A stretch of 64,000 nt of DNA from Sandaracinobacteroides saxicola (GTDB taxonomy: Bacteria > Pseudomonadota > Alphaproteobacteria > Sphingomonadales > Sphingomonadaceae): NCBI RefSeq assembly GCF_014117445.1, contig NZ_CP059851.1, positions 2,964,501 through 3,028,500 of the forward strand, read 5' to 3'. The notes beneath the pieces were generated by a model. It was not told the DNA's origin, made no database searches, and saw nothing but the letters and a program-made list of their open reading frames with translations. Below, in pieces: positions 21,213 through 63,242 of this stretch. The position numbers and the translations under genes are program-made. Every line of letters begins with the position of its first letter. The stretch's first letter is position 1.

Positions 21213-22246
21213 GACATCAACCTGCTCAATCGATTTGCTGTGAAATCCACGATGGGGACGACGCGGGCATAGTTCAACCGGGTCGGCCCGATAACCCCCA
21301 CCACGCCGACAATCCGCCCGTCGGCGCCGCGATAGGGCGCGGTGATGACGCTGGAGCCGGAGAGCGCGAACAGCTTGTTCTCCGCGCCGATGAAGATTTT
21401 GAGCGCGTCGGCCTCCCGCGCCTGGTCGAGCAGGCGGGCCATCTCCTCCTTCGCCTCCAGCTCCTCCAGCAGCAGGCGCGTGCGGTCGAGGTCGCCGCTG
21501 TCGAGCAGGTGCGCGCTGCCGCGCACGATCAGAATGGGGCGGGCACCGTCCGACGACCAGGCGGCCAGCCCCTGCGCGACCATGTCGGCGGTCAGCCGGT
21601 CGAGCTCGGCGCGGTTCGCCGCCACCTCCTGCCGCAGCCGGCCGGAGGCCGCGGTCAGGCTGAGGCCGGAGAGCCGGGCGTTGACGTAATTTTCCGCCTG
21701 CGCCAGCACCGCGGCCGGCAGGTCGGGCGGCAGGTCCAGCACCCGGTTCTCGACGCTGCCGTCCATGCCAACCAGCACCGCCAGCACCCGGCCCGGCGCC
21801 AGCGGCACGAAATTGAGCGCGCGCAATTGCGGCTCCGCCTTGGGCACCACCACCATCGCCGCGCATTGCGACAGGCCGGAGAGCGCCGCGGTGGTGCGCG
21901 ACAGCACCTCCTCCAGCGGGGCGCCCGAGGTGCTGGCCTCCCGGTCGATCAGCGCGGTCTCCCGCGCGTCCGGCTGCGCCACCTGCATCATGCCATCGAC
22001 GAACAGCCGCAGGCCGCGTTCGGTGGGGATGCGGCCGGCGGAGGTGTGCGGCGCCGCCAGCAGGCCCAGCTCCTCCAGATCCTGCATGACGTTGCGGATG
22101 CTGGCCGGCGACAGGCCGAGCGATCCCAGTTTGGACAGCGTGCGCGAACCCACCGGCGTGCCGGTGGTGAGGAAGGAATCGACGAGCTCGCGGAAGATGA
22201 TCCGCGAGCGATCGCTGAGGTCGGAGACGGACAGGGCGGGCTGCAC
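21209..22246 (-). CDS. hrcA: Heat-inducible transcription repressor HrcA
   Basis: A 345-residue HrcA, the repressor that binds CIRCE operators and controls heat-shock chaperone genes. The N-terminal winged helix has LSDRSRIIFRELVDSFLTTG, TPVGSRTLSKLG and LSPASIRNVMQDLEELGLL, and the C terminus ends with IVDFTANRLSRLMS. A GTG at 22246 is used because it gives the usual length and AGGGG lies just upstream (a tight two-base gap, so the site is weak). No CIRCE element (TTAGCACTC type) is visible upstream, so this operon does not appear to be under direct HrcA control. Confidence 0.95.
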   Translation of the reverse strand: MQPALSVSDLSDRSRIIFRELVDSFLTTGTPVGSRTLSKLGSLGLSPASIRNVMQDLEELGLLAAPHTSAGRIPTERGLRLFVDGMMQVAQPDARETALIDREASTSGAPLEEVLSRTTAALSGLSQCAAMVVVPKAEPQLRALNFVPLAPGRVLAVLVGMDGSVENRVLDLPPDLPAAVLAQAENYVNARLSGLSLTAASGRLRQEVAANRAELDRLTADMVAQGLAAWSSDGARPILIVRGSAHLLDSGDLDRTRLLLEELEAKEEMARLLDQAREADALKIFIGAENKLFALSGSSVITAPYRGADGRIVGVVGVIGPTRLNYARVVPIVDFTANRLSRLMS

Positions 22247-22341
22247 TGCCCCTACATAGGGCAGGGTGGCGGTGCCGCCAAGGATGACAGGGCCGCACGG
22301 GGCCGCTATGCCCACTGCCTTACGAAACAAAGGAATTGACC

Positions 22342-23058
22342 ATGCGCCCCAGCGGCCGCGCCCCCGACCAGATGCGTTCGATCACCATGACCCCGCGTTT
22401 CAGCCGCCATGCCGAAGGGTCCTGCCTGGTGGCATTCGGCGACACGCATGTGCTGGTCACCGCCAGCGTGGAAGAACGCGTGCCGCCCTTCCTGCGCGGC
22501 AAGGGCAGCGGCTGGGTGACGGCCGAATATGGCATGCTGCCGCGCGCCACCCACACGCGGGGCAGCCGCGAAGCCGCGAAGGGAAAACAATCGGGCCGCA
22601 CGCAGGAAATCCAGCGGCTGATCGGGCGCAGCCTGCGGGCGGTCACCGACCTGAAGGCGCTGGGCGAGCGGCAGATCACGCTCGACTGCGACGTGTTGCA
22701 AGCCGATGGCGGCACGCGCACCGCGGCGATCAGCGGCGCCTGGGTGGCGCTGCGGCTGGCGCTCGATGGCATCCATGCGGCGACGCCATTTGCGGCCGAT
22801 CCCCTCGCCGTCCATGTGGCGGCGGTGAGCTGCGGCGTGTTCGAGGGGACGCCGGTGCTCGACCTGGATTACCCCGAGGATTCGAATGCGGGGACGGATG
22901 GCAATTTCGTGCTGACCAGCACCGGCGGCCTGGTGGAGGTGCAGGCGACCGCCGAGGGCGAACCCTATGACGAGGAGACGCTGCTGCGCCTGCTGCGCCT
23001 GGCGCGCATCGGCTGCGCCGAGATTTTCAGCTGCCAGCGGGCGGCAACGGGGCGCTAG
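22342..23058 (+). CDS. rph: Ribonuclease PH
   Basis: A 238-residue RNase PH, a phosphate-dependent 3'-to-5' exoribonuclease that trims tRNA precursors. Characteristic blocks are [49 protein letters not shown] and [18 protein letters not shown]. The ATG at 22342 follows an AAAGGAA site. It is divergent from hrcA and starts the rph-rdgB-hemW run, a standard sphingomonad order. Confidence 0.97.
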
Positions 23059-23074
23059 GGTGCGGACAGTGGCG

Positions 23075-23677
23075 ATGCCCGACACGCTGCTCCTCGCCAC
23101 CCACAATGCCGGCAAGGTCGCCGAATTCGCCGCCATGTTCGCGCCGCTCGGCATCACACTGGTGTCGGCGGGGGACCGGGGCCTGCCGGAGCCGGTGGAG
23201 ACGGAAGACAGCTTCATCGGCAATGCCCTGCTGAAGGCGCGGCGTGCCCATGCGCTGACCGGGCAGGCGACGCTGGCGGATGACAGCGGGCTGTGCGTCG
23301 ATGCGCTTGGCGGCGCGCCGGGGGTGCATACGGCCGACTGGGCGGAAACCGGGCAGGGGCGCGACTGGATGCAGGCGATGGCGCGGGTGGAGCGCGAACT
23401 GGCGGCGCAGGGGCCGGGCGTGTCGCGGCGCGCGCATTTTGTCGCGGTGCTGGCGCTCGTGCTGGCGGACGGGACCGAGCATGTGTTCGAGGGGCGTGCC
23501 CATGGCAGCCTCACCTGGCCGCCGCGCGGGCACATCGGCTTCGGCTATGATCCGGTGTTCGTGCCCGATGGCCACAGCCAGACCTTCGCCGAACTGCCCT
23601 TCGAGGCCAAGCAGGCGCTCAGCCACCGGACGCGGGCGTTCGAGGCGCTGCTGGCGGCGGGGGTATTGGCGACGTGA
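23075..23677 (+). CDS. rdgB: Non-canonical purine NTP pyrophosphatase (RdgB/HAM1)
   Basis: A 200-residue house-cleaning enzyme that hydrolyses dITP and XTP to monophosphates. The family pattern is clear: LLLATHNAGKVAEF, ETEDSFIGNALLKARRA, LADDSGLCVDALGGAPGVHTA, and GFGYDPVFVPDGHSQTFAEL. The ATG at 23075 begins the first strand; an in-frame GTG at 23060 would add five residues and sits closer to a GG-rich site, so the exact start is uncertain. It lies 16 bases after rph and its stop overlaps the possible GTG start of hemW. Confidence 0.95.
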   Translation: MPDTLLLATHNAGKVAEFAAMFAPLGITLVSAGDRGLPEPVETEDSFIGNALLKARRAHALTGQATLADDSGLCVDALGGAPGVHTADWAETGQGRDWMQAMARVERELAAQGPGVSRRAHFVAVLALVLADGTEHVFEGRAHGSLTWPPRGHIGFGYDPVFVPDGHSQTFAELPFEAKQALSHRTRAFEALLAAGVLAT

Positions 23678-23679
23678 CG

Positions 23680-23796
23680 TCGGACGGGCTGGCGCTGCCC
23701 CTCCACGCGGGCAAAGCCCGCGCTGCGGGCCAGCCCCACCCGCCGGCCGGAGACGCTCGGGAGTCTGTGGACGTTCAGCCGAATGCGATGCATTCG
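23680..23796. repeat. Palindromic repeats between rdgB and hemW
   Basis: Two hairpins lie in the 110 bases after rdgB: GCGGGC-AAA-GCCCGC (23707-23721) and CGAATGC (23780-23786) pairing with GCATTCG (23790-23796), with the hemW ATG in its loop. The stretch stays open in the hemW frame but does not look like protein-coding DNA of the family. Confidence 0.55.
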
Positions 23797-24939
23797 CCTT
23801 CCACGCCACAGCCCCTCGCGCTCTACATCCACTGGCCCTTCTGCGTCACCAAATGCCCCTATTGCGACTTCAACAGCCATGTCCGGCCGGACCGCGACGA
23901 AGCCGCCTGGGCGGGCGCGCTGCTGGCAGAGTTGGCGCATGAAGCGGCACTAACGCCCGACCACCGGCTGGGCAGCATCTTCTTCGGCGGCGGCACGCCC
24001 TCGCTGATGGCGCCGGCCACGGTTGCCGCGGTGATTGACGCCGCCACCCGGCACTGGCGCGTCGATGCCGACATCGAGATCACGCTGGAGGCCAACCCCT
24101 CAAGCGTGGAGGCGGCGCGTTTCGCGGGGTTCGCGGCCGCCGGCGTCAACCGGGTCAGCCTGGGGTTGCAGGCGCTGGACGACGCGGCGCTGAAGCTGCT
24201 CGGGCGGCCGCATGACCTGGCGGAGGGGCTGGCGGCGCTCGACGTGGCGCAGGCGCATTTCGGCCGCGTCAGCTTCGACCTGATCCATACGCGGCCGGGG
24301 CAGAGCGTGGCGCAGTGGCAGGCCGAACTCGCCCGCGCGCTGGCGTTCGGCACCACGCACCTCAGCGCCTATCAGCTGACCATCGAGCCGGGGACGCGCT
24401 TCGCCAGCCTGTTCGCCAAAGGCCTGCTGACGCTGCCGCACGAAGATGATTCCGCGACCATGTTCGAACTGACAGGGGCGATGTGCGCCGCCGCCGGCCT
24501 GCTGCCCTACGAGGTCAGCAACCATGCCCGGCCCGGCGATGAAAGCCGCCACAATCTCGCCTATTGGCGCTATGACGACTATGTCGGCGTCGGCCCCGGC
24601 GCGCATGGCCGGCGGCACGGCGCCGCGACCGCGCGGCTGAAGCGGCCGGAAAGCTGGATCACGGCGGTGACGGCCGACGGCCATGGCATCGAGACGAGCG
24701 AGGCAATTCCCCCCGCCACCGCGGCGCGGGAGGCGCTGCTGATGGGCCTGCGCCTGGCGGACGGCATCGACCCGGCGCATTTCGCCGCGCGCACCGGCGT
24801 GGCGCTGGACGCGGCCATCGACAGCGTCGCCCGCGCGCGGCTGACCACGCTGGGCCTGCTGCACCCGGGCGAACAGCTGCGCGTGACGGACGCCGGGCGC
24901 AGCGTGCTGAACCGGGTGATCGCCGAGTTGGCGGGTTGA
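23788..24939 (+). CDS. hemW: Radical SAM heme chaperone HemW
   Basis: A 383-residue coproporphyrinogen oxidase-like radical SAM protein now known as the heme chaperone HemW. Near the N terminus LALYIHWPFCVTKCPYCDF holds the iron-sulfur cysteines C19, C23 and C26 in CX3CX2C spacing, and the FF replaces the extra cysteine of true HemN. FFGGGTPSLM, LEANPSS and VNRVSLGLQ follow. The ATG at 23788 gives the family length; a GTG at 23674, overlapping the rdgB stop, would add 38 residues encoded by palindromic repeats. Confidence 0.93.
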   Translation: MHSPSTPQPLALYIHWPFCVTKCPYCDFNSHVRPDRDEAAWAGALLAELAHEAALTPDHRLGSIFFGGGTPSLMAPATVAAVIDAATRHWRVDADIEITLEANPSSVEAARFAGFAAAGVNRVSLGLQALDDAALKLLGRPHDLAEGLAALDVAQAHFGRVSFDLIHTRPGQSVAQWQAELARALAFGTTHLSAYQLTIEPGTRFASLFAKGLLTLPHEDDSATMFELTGAMCAAAGLLPYEVSNHARPGDESRHNLAYWRYDDYVGVGPGAHGRRHGAATARLKRPESWITAVTADGHGIETSEAIPPATAAREALLMGLRLADGIDPAHFAARTGVALDAAIDSVARARLTTLGLLHPGEQLRVTDAGRSVLNRVIAELAG

Positions 24940-56100: not shown

Positions 56101-57298
56101 GGAGTTGGAAGGCGCACTCGCGCTCGGCGCCGACGTCAGCGGCCCCGTCCGCCAGCCGGCGATCACGGGCATCGCCCGCGGCCGCAACCTGACCTACAGC
56201 AACAACGCCACCGGCACCGTCATCAGCAACCTGCAACTGGACAGCCGCTTCACCGGCAGCCGGTTCGAGCTGCTCTCGCTCACCGGCACCGCCGGCAAGG
56301 GCAGCCTCAGCGCCAAAGGCGGCGCCAGCCTCGACAATGGCAGCCTCAGCGTCGACATCGGCGCCACGCTGGACAATGCCCGCCTCGCCAACAGCGAACT
56401 CATCGCCGCCACCCTCTCCGGTCCGCTGCGCCTCAGCGGCAGCGCCGGCCGCTACGCGCTCACCGGCGACCTGCGCCTGCTGGAGGCGCGCACCAAGCTC
56501 GTCCGCAGCAACAGCGCCGCCATCCCCGTCATCGCCGTCCGCCGCAAGGGCGAAGTCCGCGTGCCCGACGCGGACTCGCTCAGCCCCGGCCGCATCGCGC
56601 TCGATGTCGCGGTGAAGGCGGACAACAACATCTTCGTCGAGGGCATGGGCCTGGAAAGCGAATGGCGCACCGACATGCGGCTGCGCGGCACGCCGGCCGC
56701 CCCCGAACTGCTCGGCACCGCCCAGGTCGTGCGCGGCACCTTCGAATTCGCCGGCCGCGAATTCACGCTGAAACGCGGCCGCATCGGCTTCAACGGCGCG
56801 CCCCTCGACAGCAGCCTCGACATCCAGGCCGAAACCATCGCCGACACCATCACCGCCACCGTCGCCATCGCCGGCTCCGCCAAGGCCCCCTCCGTCAACT
56901 TCAGCTCGGTGCCCACCCTGCCGCAGGATGAGGTGCTCGCGCGCCTGCTGTTCGGCACCTCGGTCGCCGACCTCAGCCTGACCGAGGCGGTGCAGCTGGC
57001 GACCGCGGTCGCCAGCCTGCAGGGCGGTGGCGGCCTCGACCCCGTCGGCAAGCTCCGCCGCGCCGCCGGCATCGACCGGCTGAAACTGCTGGGCGAAGAC
57101 AAGGCCAGCGGCCGCGGACCCTCATTGGCCGTCGGCAAGCGCCTCAGCCGCAACGTCTATGTCGAGGTCACCACCGACAGCGAAGGCAACGCCGCCACCC
57201 AGGTCCAGCTGTCCTTGAGCCGCGTGCTCAGCCTGCTCGCCCAGGTCGGCAGCTTCAACCGCAACAGCGTCAACCTGCGCTACTCACGGGATTACTGA
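53180..57298 (+). CDS. tamB: Translocation and assembly module TamB
   Basis: A 1372-residue inner-membrane-anchored protein. An N-terminal helix (about 5-25, ALILVAILALVAAAIPAGL) is followed by an AsmA-like region and a very long repetitive beta-taco structure rich in alanine, glycine and threonine; the C-terminal DUF490 domain (about 1050-1372) contains NIFVEGMGLESEWRTDM, the GTFEFAGREFTLKRGRIGF block and SFNRNSVNLRYSRDY at the end. TamB spans the periplasm to bring lipids or proteins to TamA. The start overlaps tamA by one base. Its end overlaps a convergent gene by 29 bases. Confidence 0.95.
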   Translation: MRRAALILVAILALVAAAIPAGLWWLARTDAGRSFVAQQVAGVSPASGLKFKVGRIDGDLLTRFSLVDVQVYDLDGLLLTAPLVDVAWQPRQLLGNSIAIDDLRVPSARMLRMWRINPSDPDEPLLPDIDIRIDRLTLGALTLEPALAGRRTVLSANGKADIRDGRVLLDLVTSSDRADRLTLRADAEPDRDRFDLAARLTAPAGGLVTTMAGLAKPLALSLDGAGRWSDWRGRAIATLGGARALDLSITQARTLTRVRGNLFPPALLTGQPAALLGPTLAIEADATIADRAIEGRFAATATSLRLSGGGGFDIDANRFRALAVELRADRPAALYPGLSGSALQLRARLDGPRAAPEFTLNATAASLRYKGMGADGLRLSASGTADLSRALTIPVDVGVTRLVGLPANVAALAANPRLLATLRWDKGTLSSQDIRLTTAAARATASGNFTPATGRYAGTLRAQVDRYAVPQLGSIAATLTASVASTGKGPPAIRGALDARALTLANAGVRDFLGGLPTLSIAFAPAADGSIRFSDGRLTAPKLTLANTTGSFNPSTGRFTISTAGRSADYGPLTLVAEGTPAQPRATLTLARPGFGFGITNLVAVIEPVGNQFAITARGQSPQGPLDGRVRILPSPLTLDIDRFALAGLTASGRLAATAAGPFAGTLAINGRGLDADLTLSARGRVQAVAVDARANGARIPLDTPISIANGQANATILLFPGAPHIIGGFNATGIRIGEIALTRASGRANLVGQRGNALLSLAGANTDGTPYSADLGVTALATGYRVGLTGAIGRLPLRLAQPAEIDRVPGGFALRPARLLLPKGQVDVQGEWAARRSLRARLSGVDLSIATLADPELRLGGALSGDIDLALAPGADLPTGRVRLNVVRLTRAGLTTVSAPIDVAFAADATASGIVAGATLANGNTPLGRARVTLDPGPGEDAVARLMSGTLAGGIRYNGPAEALWALSAIEGQELEGALALGADVSGPVRQPAITGIARGRNLTYSNNATGTVISNLQLDSRFTGSRFELLSLTGTAGKGSLSAKGGASLDNGSLSVDIGATLDNARLANSELIAATLSGPLRLSGSAGRYALTGDLRLLEARTKLVRSNSAAIPVIAVRRKGEVRVPDADSLSPGRIALDVAVKADNNIFVEGMGLESEWRTDMRLRGTPAAPELLGTAQVVRGTFEFAGREFTLKRGRIGFNGAPLDSSLDIQAETIADTITATVAIAGSAKAPSVNFSSVPTLPQDEVLARLLFGTSVADLSLTEAVQLATAVASLQGGGGLDPVGKLRRAAGIDRLKLLGEDKASGRGPSLAVGKRLSRNVYVEVTTDSEGNAATQVQLSLSRVLSLLAQVGSFNRNSVNLRYSRDY

Positions 57299-57887
57299 GG
57301 GCAAACGCCCGCCGCCGGGCCCGCCGGATCATCCAGCCCACCAGCCCGAATCCCACGATCATCATCGCCCAGGCCTGCGACTCCGGCACCGGCGCCACCT
57401 GCGGCACATTGGCCTGCTCGATCGGCCGCCCCTTGCTCTCGCCCGGCCCCTCCACCGGTGGCGCCTCCCCGCCGCCCGCACTGCCCGGCACGCCGCCGCC
57501 ATCGCCGATGAACGCCGGCGCCGCCGGCATGCCGTTGCTCCCCGGCACCACGCCCGGCAGCGGCAGCGGCACCCCGGCCACGCGCGCCCCGCCCGGTTCC
57601 AGCATCGGCTGCAAGGCCGACAGCCGCGCCACCGTCGCCTCTTGGCTGGAACAACCCTCCTCGCCCCGCTCGGGCACCACCTCCTCGAAGCGCACTTGCT
57701 GCTGCGCCAGGCTCACCTTCGCCCGCGCCGCCTGCGCCCCCGGCGTCGGCGCGGGCTTCGCCGCCTTCACCACCGCCGGCCTCGGCTTCGCCGCCACCTT
57801 CTGCACCGCCACGGTCGTTCCCGCGCCCAGCCCGCCCGCGGCCAGCAGCGCGCACATCTGTTTCAGCGTGGCCTGTGTAACAATCAT
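57270..57887 (-). CDS. PEP-CTERM sorting-domain protein
   Basis: A 205-residue secreted protein. After an N-terminal helix (LKQMCALLAAGGLGAGTTVA) the chain is alanine/proline-rich, with EVVPERGEEGCSSQEATVAR and a glycine-rich middle. The end is VPESQAWAMMIVGFGLVGWMIRRARRRAF: a PE motif, one membrane helix and a basic tail, the pattern of exosortase-processed PEP-CTERM proteins in sphingomonads. The ATG at 57887 has a GGCGGGC-type site upstream and is preferred to earlier starts in the aldehyde dehydrogenase promoter region. Its last 29 bases overlap tamB. Confidence 0.7.
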   Translation of the reverse strand: MIVTQATLKQMCALLAAGGLGAGTTVAVQKVAAKPRPAVVKAAKPAPTPGAQAARAKVSLAQQQVRFEEVVPERGEEGCSSQEATVARLSALQPMLEPGGARVAGVPLPLPGVVPGSNGMPAAPAFIGDGGGVPGSAGGGEAPPVEGPGESKGRPIEQANVPQVAPVPESQAWAMMIVGFGLVGWMIRRARRRAFALSNPVSSAG

Positions 57888-58009
57888 GCCCGCCTTAACG
57901 GCCAGCAACGCATCAGCCTGCGTCCCCTCATGCTTAATGAAACTGACAGGCCCCCACCCCGTTGCCACCACACAGCCACCCACTATGTTCACCGCCGAAG
58001 GGGAAAGAG

Positions 58010-59467
58010 ATGACCGATACGATGATCGACCGCGCCGACGCGCGAGACGCAGCCGCCATGCGCGCCACACTGGAGGCCCAGCGCGCCGCCTTCACCGCCG
58101 AACTCCCCGTCTCCGCCGCGACACGCAAAGACCGCCTGCGCCGCGCGCTCGACCTCGTGCTCGCCAACAAGGACGCCTTTGCAAAGGCGCTGTCCGACGA
58201 TTTCGGCCACCGCAGCATCGAACAGACCATGGTCACGGACATCATGGCCTCGGTGAAACCGCTCAAACACGCGATCAGCCATCTCGACGCCTGGATGCGC
58301 CCGGAAAAGCGCAGCCTCGATTTCCCCCTCGGCCTGCTCGGCGCCAAAGCCAGCGTCGAATGGCAGCCCAAGGGCGTCGTCGGCATCATCGCGCCCTGGA
58401 ACTTCCCGGTGAACCTCACCTTCGCGCCGCTCGCCAACATCCTGGCCGCCGGCAACCGCGCCATGATCAAGCCATCGGAATTCACGCCCGCCACGAGCGA
58501 GCTGATGAAGACCGCCTTCGCGACATATTTTTCGGAGGCCGAGATCGCCGTCATCCTGGGCGGCGCCGAAGCCGGCAAGGCGTTCAGCGAACTGCCCTTC
58601 GATCACCTGATCTTCACCGGCGCCACCAGCATCGGCCGCCATGTCATGGCCGCCGCGGCGAAGAACCTCGTCCCCGTCACCCTCGAACTCGGCGGCAAAT
58701 CCCCCACCATCATCGGCCGCAGCGCCAACCTGCCCCAGGCCGCCGAGCGCGTCGCCATGGGCAAGCTGATGAACGCCGGCCAGATCTGCCTCGCCCCCGA
58801 TTATCTCCTCGTCCCCGCCGAGGCGGAGAATGAGATGGTCGCCCAGCTCCAGGCCGCCACCGCCCGCCTATACCCCACCATGCTGGCGAACGACGATTAC
58901 ACCAGCGTCATCAGCCGCCGCCACCGGGACCGCCTGCAGGCCCATATCGAGGATGCCCGCGCGAAGGGCGCCGAGGTGGTCGAAATCAACCCCGCCAACG
59001 AGGATTTCAGCAAGCAGAACACCAACAAGATGCCCTTGACCGTGCTGCGCAACGTCACCGACGAGATGAGCGTCATGCAGGAGGAAATCTTCGGCCCCGT
59101 CCTCCCCGTCAAGACCTACAAGGCGGTCGACGACGCCATCGCCTACATCAATGCGAAAGACCGCCCGCTGGGCCTCTACTGGTTCGGCACCGACGCCAGC
59201 GAGGAACGCCAGGTCATGGACCGCACCATCAGCGGCGGCGTCACCGTGAACGACGTGCTGTTCCACGTCAGCGCCGAGGACCTGCCCTTCGGCGGCATCG
59301 GCCCCGCGGGCATGGGCAATTACCACGGCCATGACGGCTTCAAGACCTTCAGCCACCCCAAGAGCATCTACCGCCAGCCGAAACTGGACCTCGCCGGCCT
59401 CGCCGGCTTCAAACCCCCCTACGGCCCCAAAACCCGCAAAGCCCTCGCCCGCGAGTTGAAGGCGTAA
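58010..59467 (+). CDS. Coniferyl aldehyde dehydrogenase-like protein
   Basis: A 485-residue NAD(P)-dependent aldehyde dehydrogenase. The catalytic cysteine is C260 in GQICLAPDY and the general base E226 in LELGGKSP; N131 in PWNFPVN stabilises the oxyanion. The 'CLAPDY' and 'GGKSPTI' context matches coniferyl aldehyde dehydrogenases (CalB type), which act on aromatic aldehydes. It lies 122 bases from the divergent PEP-CTERM gene, with a GGGGAAAGAG site before the ATG at 58010. Confidence 0.93.
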   Translation: MTDTMIDRADARDAAAMRATLEAQRAAFTAELPVSAATRKDRLRRALDLVLANKDAFAKALSDDFGHRSIEQTMVTDIMASVKPLKHAISHLDAWMRPEKRSLDFPLGLLGAKASVEWQPKGVVGIIAPWNFPVNLTFAPLANILAAGNRAMIKPSEFTPATSELMKTAFATYFSEAEIAVILGGAEAGKAFSELPFDHLIFTGATSIGRHVMAAAAKNLVPVTLELGGKSPTIIGRSANLPQAAERVAMGKLMNAGQICLAPDYLLVPAEAENEMVAQLQAATARLYPTMLANDDYTSVISRRHRDRLQAHIEDARAKGAEVVEINPANEDFSKQNTNKMPLTVLRNVTDEMSVMQEEIFGPVLPVKTYKAVDDAIAYINAKDRPLGLYWFGTDASEERQVMDRTISGGVTVNDVLFHVSAEDLPFGGIGPAGMGNYHGHDGFKTFSHPKSIYRQPKLDLAGLAGFKPPYGPKTRKALARELKA

Positions 59468-60534: not shown

Positions 60535-61185
60535 CTACCCCATCACCCTCCGCCCCCGCCGCATGCTCACCCCCACCAGCCCGAATCCCATGATCATCAT
60601 CGCCCAGGTCGCCGGCTCCGGCACCGCCGCCGCCGACGCGATGGTCAGATTGTCGATCGCGAAAAACCCGTCCGTCGTCGGCTTGCCTTCGACGCCAAAG
60701 GCAATCGATCGGATCAGCTTGTCGGATGTGATTCCCGGCGTCCCGCCATTCCCCAGCAGCAGCAGCTGCGTGCTGCCGTCCCCGAAGGTGATCAGGGAGG
60801 AGAAGGGCCGAAAGGCATTGGCCACCAGGTCCAGCGCCACGCCATACACCCCGCCCGTGCCGAAATCCGTCTGGTCGAAATGCAGCGTGAAACTGCCCTG
60901 GCAACCGGAACAATAGGCCGTGCCGCCGGCAATCCCCAGCAGCAGGTTGTTGCCCAGGATGCCGGTCGTCTCATAGCGCGTCTGGCCCACCACCGCCGAC
61001 ATCGCCGCATCGCCCAGCACCTGCGGCGACGGCGGATAGCCCAGGGCGGTCTCATAGGTATCGACAAAGTTGGCGCCGACCGCCGCGATGAACGAGGCAC
61101 GGTCGCTGAACAGCGTGGTCGCCGCCGACGCCGGCAAGGCCAGCATCGACACCGCCGCCGCGGTGATGAGGAATTTGAACGTCAT
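60535..61185 (-). CDS. PEP-CTERM sorting-domain protein (extracellular)
   Basis: A 216-residue secreted protein. The signal peptide ends PASAATT. A beta-rich middle (SFIAAVGANFVDTYETALGY, GTAYCSGCQGSFTLHF and RSIAFGVEGKPTTDGFFAID) is followed by the PEP-CTERM end VPEPATWAMMIMGFGLVGVSMRRGRR. Proteins with this end are handled by an exosortase and often contribute to the envelope or biofilm. A GGGAGA site lies upstream of the ATG at 61185. The function of the middle part is unknown; no exosortase gene is in the window. Confidence 0.9.
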   Translation of the reverse strand: MTFKFLITAAAVSMLALPASAATTLFSDRASFIAAVGANFVDTYETALGYPPSPQVLGDAAMSAVVGQTRYETTGILGNNLLLGIAGGTAYCSGCQGSFTLHFDQTDFGTGGVYGVALDLVANAFRPFSSLITFGDGSTQLLLLGNGGTPGITSDKLIRSIAFGVEGKPTTDGFFAIDNLTIASAAAVPEPATWAMMIMGFGLVGVSMRRGRRVMG

Positions 61186-61474
61186 GAAAAATCTCCCGAG
61201 TGCAGGATTGCTCGCCCCCCATGACCCCCACCCGTTGCACGCACCGTTGCCACTGCCGTGTCGGCACCGTGGTTTCTGCTGGAAAATCGCCTGCACAGCT
61301 GAGGGCAAGGCAACGGAAGCCTCCCTCCAGCCCCTCCCCCGCTTGGCGGGGGAGGTGTCAGCGCCGCAGGCGATGACGGAGGGGGCCATCGCCTGCAGGC
61401 GGCACCCAATCGTCTCCCCTCCCCTTCAGGGGAGGGGCCGGGGGTGGGGCCGTCCCTCGATTGCGGTGGATTAG
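61186..61474. other. Repeat-rich intergenic stretch before the Rhs fragment
   Basis: This gap holds no gene I can support. It contains a CCCCCGC...GCGGGGG palindrome near 61326-61350 and copy 3 of the CCCCTCCCC...GGGGAGGGG repeat at 61416-61437 with its GGGGGTGGGGCCGTCCC flank to 61455. The Rhs reading frame opens just after it at 61475, so the repeat may mark the breakpoint where the 5' part of the Rhs gene was lost. Confidence 0.7.
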
Positions 61475-61510
61475 GATTGCTGCACAAGCGATCCGCCGTT
61501 CGGCTATAGC

Positions 61511-62041
61511 GTGTTTGGTTACGATGGGGCGAACCTGGTGGTGGAGAAGAGTTCGAACTATGCCATTACGCGCCGCTATGTTCACGGCCAGGGTGACGAC
61601 GAGCCCTTGGTCTGGTATGAGGGAGCCGGGACGGGTGACAGGCGGTGGCTGGTTGCAGACGAGCGCAACTCGGTCATTGCGGTCACCGATGCCGGCGGAG
61701 CCGCGATCGCCGTGAACCGATACGACGAATATGGCATCCCGGCGTCGAGCAACCTCGGCCGGTTCCAGTATAACGGCCAGATGTGGCTGTCCGATATCGG
61801 CCTCTACCACTACAAGGCCCGCACCTACTCCCCCACGCTGGGCCGGTTCCTGCAGACCGATCCCATCGGCTACGACGATGGCATGAACATGTATGCCTAT
61901 GTGGGCAATGATCCGGTGAATCTCGTTGATTCTACCGGACTAGGTCAGTGTATAGCAGGAGATGTGGGCGGAATCATCATTGTTCAGGTTGGAAATCAGG
62001 GTCAAGACCAAATTAGTAGTCTGATTTGTGGAAAGCGTTGA
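61511..62041 (+). CDS. Rhs repeat-associated core fragment with short C-terminal tip (5'-truncated)
   Basis: The 176-residue fragment (frame open from 61475) is the very end of an Rhs/YD-repeat protein. Visible are YVHGQGDDEPLVWYEGAG, RWLVADERNSVIAV, NRYDEYGIPASSNLGRFQYN, and the core motif SPTLGRFLQTDPIGYDDGMN with YAYVGNDPVN. After DSTGL the last 30-odd residues (GGIIIVQVGNQGQD, ISSLICGKR) are a hypervariable tip encoded by clearly lower-GC DNA. The GTG at 61511 is an uncertain start; the gene probably has lost its 5' part and is not secreted. It is one base away from an AT-rich membrane-protein gene. Confidence 0.75.
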   Translation: MFGYDGANLVVEKSSNYAITRRYVHGQGDDEPLVWYEGAGTGDRRWLVADERNSVIAVTDAGGAAIAVNRYDEYGIPASSNLGRFQYNGQMWLSDIGLYHYKARTYSPTLGRFLQTDPIGYDDGMNMYAYVGNDPVNLVDSTGLGQCIAGDVGGIIIVQVGNQGQDQISSLICGKR

Positions 62042-62042
62042 A

Positions 62043-62390
62043 ATGGATTCTTTATATATTATTCTTTTTTGTATCTGCATACTCGTATTTGATCTGGTAA
62101 ATTGGATTTACTATTTTGTCTATAAAAAACTCAATTCTGAGCTAGATTATCCTCTTTTTAGCAGCATTTACTTTCGGGGCTGGGCTCCAGTTTTTTTTGG
62201 CGTGCTTTTTGTGGGATTTTATGGCTATGTAAATAAGGACGATTTTAGCAGTATTTCTCAGTCAGGTGGGATGGATTTATTTCTGCTGGTGTCGCTTCTT
62301 ATTTTATTTGCGTATATTTTTTTCGCTAGGCCAAGAATAATTGTTCAATATATGAAAAAGAGGAGAAATTGCAACAATAGCAAGTTATAG
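62043..62390 (+). CDS. AT-rich three-helix membrane protein, candidate Rhs immunity protein
   Basis: A 115-residue protein with three predicted membrane helices (about 4-26, 50-66 and 79-97) and a basic tail (KKRRNCNN). By my count the first 180 bases are about 32% G+C in a window of much higher GC, which points to recent acquisition. It starts one base after the Rhs stop (GGAAAG upstream of the ATG), the place where immunity genes to Rhs tips are usually found. A membrane immunity protein would fit a tip acting at a membrane. No family recognised. Confidence 0.6.
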   Translation: MDSLYIILFCICILVFDLVNWIYYFVYKKLNSELDYPLFSSIYFRGWAPVFFGVLFVGFYGYVNKDDFSSISQSGGMDLFLLVSLLILFAYIFFARPRIIVQYMKKRRNCNNSKL

Positions 62391-62518
62391 AACTACGAAT
62401 TACGGTGATGGTGTGGACGGTACTCTGATTGGGGGTTTGGTTCGGCTGTGCCGACCCTTCAAGGTGTAACGTCGAGGTTCACCTGCAGGAGCATCCCCGG
62501 CCTTCGCCGGGGCAGGCT
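62391..62518 (+). other. Leader of the IS110 remnant, structured
   Basis: No gene is seen. Two hairpins lie here: GGTTCGGC...GCCGACC (62439-62456, one bulge) and CCCCGGC-CTTC-GCCGGGG (62495-62512), directly before the transposase start. In IS110-group elements the region upstream of the transposase encodes a structured guide (bridge) RNA, so this may be its remnant; that is an inference. Confidence 0.35.
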
Positions 62519-62698
62519 ATGCCAACGCTACTCTCTGATCTGTCGTCTGTCACCGTTGTCGGGCTTGATCTGGCCAAGGATCTATTCCAAGTGCACGCCC
62601 TTGATGCGGCTGGCCACATCATCGTGGCCCGGGCGCTGTGGCGAAAGGATGAGCCAGCTTTCTTCGCCGCCTTGCCGCCAGCTTATGGGAAGCTTTGA
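62519..62698 (+). pseudogene. IS110-family transposase fragment
   Basis: The 59-residue frame matches only the N terminus of an IS110-type DEDD transposase: VTVVGLDLAKDLFQVHALDA (first catalytic aspartate in GLDLAK) and ARALWRKDEPAFFAALPPA. It stops after about one sixth of the normal 300-400 residues, so this is a dead remnant. It marks past mobile-element activity next to the Rhs fragment. Confidence 0.8.
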
Positions 62699-62809
62699 AA
62701 CAGCTTGCCAAATCCACTCACCTCTGATAACCATATTGGCATCATCGAGTCAGCATCCAACGTCCATCCACCCCGCGCGACCCGCCCAAACCCCCCGAAA
62801 TCGCTAAGT

Positions 62810-62848
62810 CCTTGATTCAGGCTGTCACTTTTTTCGACAAACCTTCCA
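62810..62848 (-). repeat. Dispersed repeat, partial copy C
   Basis: The 39 bases starting CCTTGATTCAGGCTGTCACT and ending ACCTTCCA match 63041-63079 with three differences. This is only the head of the longer repeat found at 4190-4312 and 62957-63079. Confidence 0.75.
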
Positions 62849-62956
62849 AGTTTCAGCGATGCAACAAACCAACAGCCTCACCCATCCCGTCACCCTGGGC
62901 TCGACCCGGGGCCCATTCGACACTCAGCCCACCCCAACAGCCCAACTGTCTCACAA

Positions 62957-63079
62957 ACCCCCGTCCTGCTGAACTTGGTTCAGCACCCATGGTTCCTCCA
63001 ACACCCCACATGGCGCAGAAATCGACCATTTCCGCCAACCCCTTGATTCAGGCTGTCACTTTTTTCGATCAACCTTCCA
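62957..63079 (-). repeat. Dispersed repeat (copy B), homologous to 4190-4312
   Basis: Read on the minus strand from 63079, TGGAAGGTTGATCGAAAAAA, then AATCAAGGGGTTGG, and at the end GGTGCTGAACCAAGTTCAGC and AGGACGGGGG match the plus-strand copy at 4190-4312 in order and spacing, with an indel or two. Confidence 0.75.
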
Positions 63080-63242
63080 TAATCCTACAGCCCCTGCGCG
63101 GCCAAGCCGCGCGAAACGAGCAGTGGCGCAGGCGGAAGGAGCGAAAAGAAGAAAAGTAAGAAGAAAAAGGCGTGGCAAAGCCACGCTGTCGGACGTGTCG
63201 GTCGGCCAAGGCCAACCGCACGCCGGCCAAGCTTGCCTGAGT

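Follow-up and report, generated by a model that had tools for sequence, protein, structure and literature searches.

A probable orphan rhs-CT/immunity module with a removed toxin in Sandaracinobacteroides saxicola

Layout of the locus and its cassette edges

The locus lies in the window, i.e., the whole 64,000-nucleotide stretch of the Sandaracinobacteroides saxicola genome that was analysed. On the plus strand it carries the 3′ end of an rhs gene, a short tail past the Rhs core, a small open reading frame (ORF) for a membrane protein and a transposon remnant, with dispersed repeats on either side:

61395..61460, no strand: dispersed short G+C-rich intergenic repeat, 5′ of the rhs fragment
61500..61940, plus strand: 3′ fragment of an rhs core (Rhs_assc_core) with no N-terminal part and without a convincing start, delimited by alignment to three Rhs of the genome
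61940..61990, plus strand: post-core linker LGQCIAGDVGGIIIVQV, which resembles the linker of an M15-peptidase Rhs (G000:C1:22848-24446)
61991..62041, plus strand: tip remainder of ~16 residues, GNQGQDQISSLICGKR, and stop, probably the leftover of a toxin C-terminal end
62043..62390, plus strand: candidate membrane immunity gene, 115 aa, two or three membrane helices, 34% GC
62398..62693, plus strand: conserved 3′ cassette flank, a remnant with the N-terminal part of an IS110-type transposase (62520-62698), recognised by DNA identity to other Rhs loci
62693..63120, no strand: longer dispersed repeat with ~20 partial genome copies

The Rhs-bearing ORF that runs through 62041 ends in GRFLQTDPIGYDDGMNMYAYVGNDPVNLVDSTG and a further 33 aa, LGQCIAGDVGGIIIVQVGNQGQDQISSLICGKR, before a TGA at 62039-62041. 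A single base separates this stop from the ATG at 62043 that opens the second ORF (62043-62390, 115 aa). The drop in base composition at the core/tip border that was reported in the initial annotation is clear, with GC falling from ~0.61-0.64 to 0.33-0.40 at 61900-62000 (200-bp windows). The short repeat upstream of the fragment is built on the core CCCTCCCCTTCAGGGGAGGGGCCGGGGGTGGGG and has ~30-35 partial copies genome-wide (query positions ~6-61). Further upstream, two proteins encoded on the minus strand (window 57270-58070 and 60535-61389) carry a PEPxxWA-like sorting signal at their ends (PESQAWAMMIVGFGLVG..., PEPATWAMMIMGFGLVG...).

From 62398 onward, the sequence matches that lying downstream of two other Rhs, at 2812810 (91% identity) and 22848 (89%). 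At the three Rhs loci, 8, 14 and 16 bp separate the stop of the second ORF from the start of this shared DNA. This flank is an IS110-type remnant, found at 62398-62693 of the window and at G000:C1:2811949-2812425, 21941-22392 and 2620133-2620182, the last being a short match; a 50-bp piece of the flank is present at the Rhs remnant at 2619317, and the transposase start that it contains is a weak match (E 0.008). In this genome, the IS110 flank occurs next to Rhs loci only, and the first bases of the remnant, AATTACGGTGATGGTG, mark the 3′ edge of the cassette. The sequence AATTACGGTG, or a near copy of it, is doubled at two of the Rhs loci that carry the IS110 remnant. At three loci, a variable segment (here 61922-62398) lies between the core and the common 3′ flank. 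This position and the flank DNA conserved at three Rhs loci support the earlier proposal of an exchangeable C-terminal cassette.

The rhs fragment, its tail and the membrane ORF

The Rhs core is real, matching the Rhs_assc_core profile TIGR03696 with an E-value of 4.5e-23 over 76/76 profile positions, yet what had been taken for an Rhs gene with its tip is a 3′ fragment of 183 codons. Rhs homology begins at ~61,500, the core runs to ~61,940, and an in-frame stop is located at ~61475, 5′ of the homology. The fragment corresponds to residues 1077-1236 of a 1,414-aa Rhs (G000:C1:2812810-2817054; 64% protein and 77% DNA identity), also aligns with two further Rhs copies of the genome, and comprises only the last ~150 core residues, without the N-terminal region and YD repeats of a full-length protein. 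Its sole start candidate is a GTG at 61511, 5′ of which a sequence scan of the plus strand found no promoter-like site. Rhs core occurs at six places genome-wide, two of which are small remnants, at 199901 and at 2619319, the latter with an in-frame stop. The N-terminus of the full-length 1,414-aa Rhs resembles, by eye, a signal peptide, from which the protein looks to be Sec-exported; a T6SS sheath protein (VipB, 1.8e-130) is also encoded in the genome.

The tail past the core had been described as a tip of about 32 residues with two cysteines. A short tail is indeed there, 33 aa long, with both cysteines and ending in LICGKR, but its first part is linker-like rather than new. Residues 1-17 align with SAKCIGGDVNGTITVTA of the Rhs at 22848-24446 (8/17 identical), in which the linker leads into an M15 peptidase domain (PF13539, 2.3e-8); 4/100,000 shuffles aligned equally well, although the true figure is weaker, since the partner was chosen after the search. 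Because these residues match a linker, only ~16 residues remain as possible toxin. The best 19-residue Kyte-Doolittle mean of the tail is 1.19, and no hydrophobic stretch reaches membrane length. Profile searches of Pfam and NCBIfam gave no family match past the core, and a search for the tail returned no longer version of it. A frameshift was considered as the cause of the short tip and rejected: both alternative frames of 61930-62041 are interrupted by stops, offer no toxin-like reading and leave no room for a longer toxin. The frameshift truncation raised in the initial annotation thus fails, and a deletion fits.

The membrane ORF stays open over its 115 codons in only 0.0002 of composition shuffles, and, judged by openness alone, it is probably a real coding sequence. 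Its product contains two strong hydrophobic segments (~residues 1-28 and 70-104), while a middle helix (39-65) appears solely in a low-confidence single-sequence model (pLDDT 66). Of the three-helix membrane protein annotated one base after the tip, the membrane character and the one-base gap hold, whereas the third helix depends on that weak model. A ribosome-binding-like GGAAAG lies 7 bases 5′ of the ATG. No relative of the protein at a useful E-value was found in 397 family, 396 order and 398 phylum genomes (overlapping sets), nor in plasmids, phages or PDB sequences. Pfam and NCBIfam yielded no match above cut-off and hence no tie to known immunity families, a scan of genome contigs and viral contigs, which reaches close relatives only, found nothing, and comparison with all immunity candidates at related loci gave no significant match. 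Three candidate matches were discarded: one in G049 (E 0.006) runs through two stop codons at a locus with no Rhs, and those in G427 and G469 (E ~0.001) are short stretches within much longer reading frames. Since the ORF lies between the tip stop and the common 3′ flank, it occupies the immunity position. Its product is probably the matching membrane immunity protein, as first annotated, an assignment that this position and the closeness of the flank to the second ORF at three Rhs loci both favour.

Tips and partner genes at related loci

The tail was compared with 58 other closed tips from this genome, its relatives and genome contigs. The median tip length in this sample, whose loci are not phylogenetically independent, is 179 aa. 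A full-length class (n=22) was defined by at least 600 codons before the core end, an approximate assignment that rests on reading-frame length. In this class, none of the 22 rhs genes has a tip shorter than 128 aa. Tips below 100 aa are found at 7/36 shorter reading frames (4, 8, 57, 57, 69, 75 and 75 aa) versus 0/22 full-length genes, and several of them look like frameshifts, in that the next ORF reads as continued toxin. Among loci with tips of at least 100 aa, 31/51 have a start codon no more than 8 bases from the toxin stop. The same arrangement is seen at this locus, so its original tip/immunity junction seems to have been kept.

Partners with at least two membrane segments are encoded at 12/58 loci, where tips measure 146-216 aa. 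A cysteine within the last eight residues is present in 9/12 of these membrane-partnered tips versus 13/46 of the others (Fisher p 0.006), a small statistic that was spotted post hoc among loci related by descent. Tips of ~150-215 aa with a terminal cysteine and membrane partners of at least two segments could possibly represent a class of membrane-acting tips that has so far gone unrecognised; L021 (minus strand), the single member scanned, matches no Pfam family. In several relatives, namely at L070 (G023), L081 (G413) and L062-L063 (G401), Rhs tip fragments and partner genes form long arrays. Such orphan arrays are common in these related bacteria, with G023, G413 and G401 as cases.

Origin of the short tail and likeness to known systems

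The locus is best read as an ordinary genomic remnant of a kind already described and not as a new miniature toxin. It is likely, judging from its sequence, to be an orphan rhs-CT/immunity module that has lost its toxin, probably through an internal deletion that kept the reading frame. The cassette would at first have been a normal one, with a toxin tip of ~150-200 aa, probably membrane-acting, and a membrane immunity protein. The middle of the toxin would then have been lost, leaving the linker and the last residues and, as the tip/immunity junction appears intact, the frame was probably maintained. The resemblance of LICGKR to the ends of membrane-partnered tips likewise suggests a truncated toxin. 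A truncated tip had been offered as the alternative in the initial annotation, and it is the better reading given the fragment, the linker and the tip lengths of relatives.

The orphan fragment could instead have been cut at one deletion junction, its last 16 codons being random read-through before the immunity gene. Chance could supply such a frame: in this AT-rich DNA a random frame runs on average 13 codons without a stop, and 29% of shuffles reach 17 codons or more. This origin is nevertheless unlikely, given that only a single base lies between the stop and the ATG, a spacing like that of many intact pairs, and that the tail ends like other membrane-partnered tips. A genuine mini tip would require all 33 residues of the tail, or just the final 16, to be toxic, possibly with a disulfide between the two cysteines, and the membrane protein to serve as immunity. 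The stop/start junction typical of intact pairs, the intact membrane ORF and the cysteine pair itself agree with such a tip; yet linker makes up about half of the tail, the fragment that carries it lacks a convincing start and an export part, no stretch of the tail is long enough to cross a membrane as a helix, and the full-length relatives sampled have tips of at least 128 aa. For these reasons we consider a mini tip very improbable, and the new small membrane-acting toxin of the initial annotation is not supported. An intact toxic Rhs tip of only 33 residues, active at the membrane and held in check by a membrane immunity protein of unknown family, is hardly to be expected here; if real, it would be far shorter than any in the sampled full-length relatives. 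It is likewise highly doubtful that the membrane ORF is unrelated to immunity, whether as a stray gene or as a toxic protein itself: the searched sets hold no clear relatives of it, which leaves room for such an origin, but its position between the tip stop and the common 3′ flank is exactly that of an immunity gene.

If the locus is an orphan module that lost its toxin, neither synthesis nor secretion of the tail as a toxin would be expected. Having its own ATG and GGAAAG, the second ORF may continue to be expressed and would then confer protection from the lost toxin where neighbours carry it. Recombination with full-length rhs copies could also still take place through the core and 3′ DNA on either side. 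This interpretation removes a misleading candidate for a miniature toxin. For claimed mini tips, the completeness of the gene should be checked, the post-core linker left out of the tip and its length set against those in full-length relatives. The membrane protein without detectable relatives also suggests that an Rhs toxin, probably membrane-acting, is yet to be found in related bacteria.

A literature search on Rhs polymorphic toxins in Sphingomonas found nothing relevant. In the alphaproteobacterium Caulobacter, the CdzC/CdzD-CdzI system (PMC5380434) kills in a contact-dependent manner, and its immunity protein is small and located in the inner membrane. The likeness is one of analogy only; this is a type I secreted bacteriocin pair and not Rhs. 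CDI ionophore toxin/immunity pairs (PMC11630599) combine a membrane-acting polymorphic tip with a specific immunity protein; here too the likeness is one of analogy only, and nothing comparable to their entry domain and five-helix ionophore domain is left at this locus. In CDI and Rhs systems, orphan modules that lack initiation signals and have expressible immunity genes can recombine with the main gene (PMC3150448, PMC3967940). The orphan modules tested in those studies encode working toxins, whereas the toxin part is nearly gone at this locus, and the known modules lie directly downstream of their full-length copy, whereas the present fragment is far from one. In other respects, the locus is like the orphan rhs-CT/rhsI and cdiA-CT/cdiI modules (Poole et al. 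2011, PMC3150448; Koskiniemi et al. 2014, PMC3967940), with which it shares a core fragment with no evident initiation or export signals, a tip, an immunity ORF with its own start, nearby transposon remnants and homology to full-length copies for recombination.
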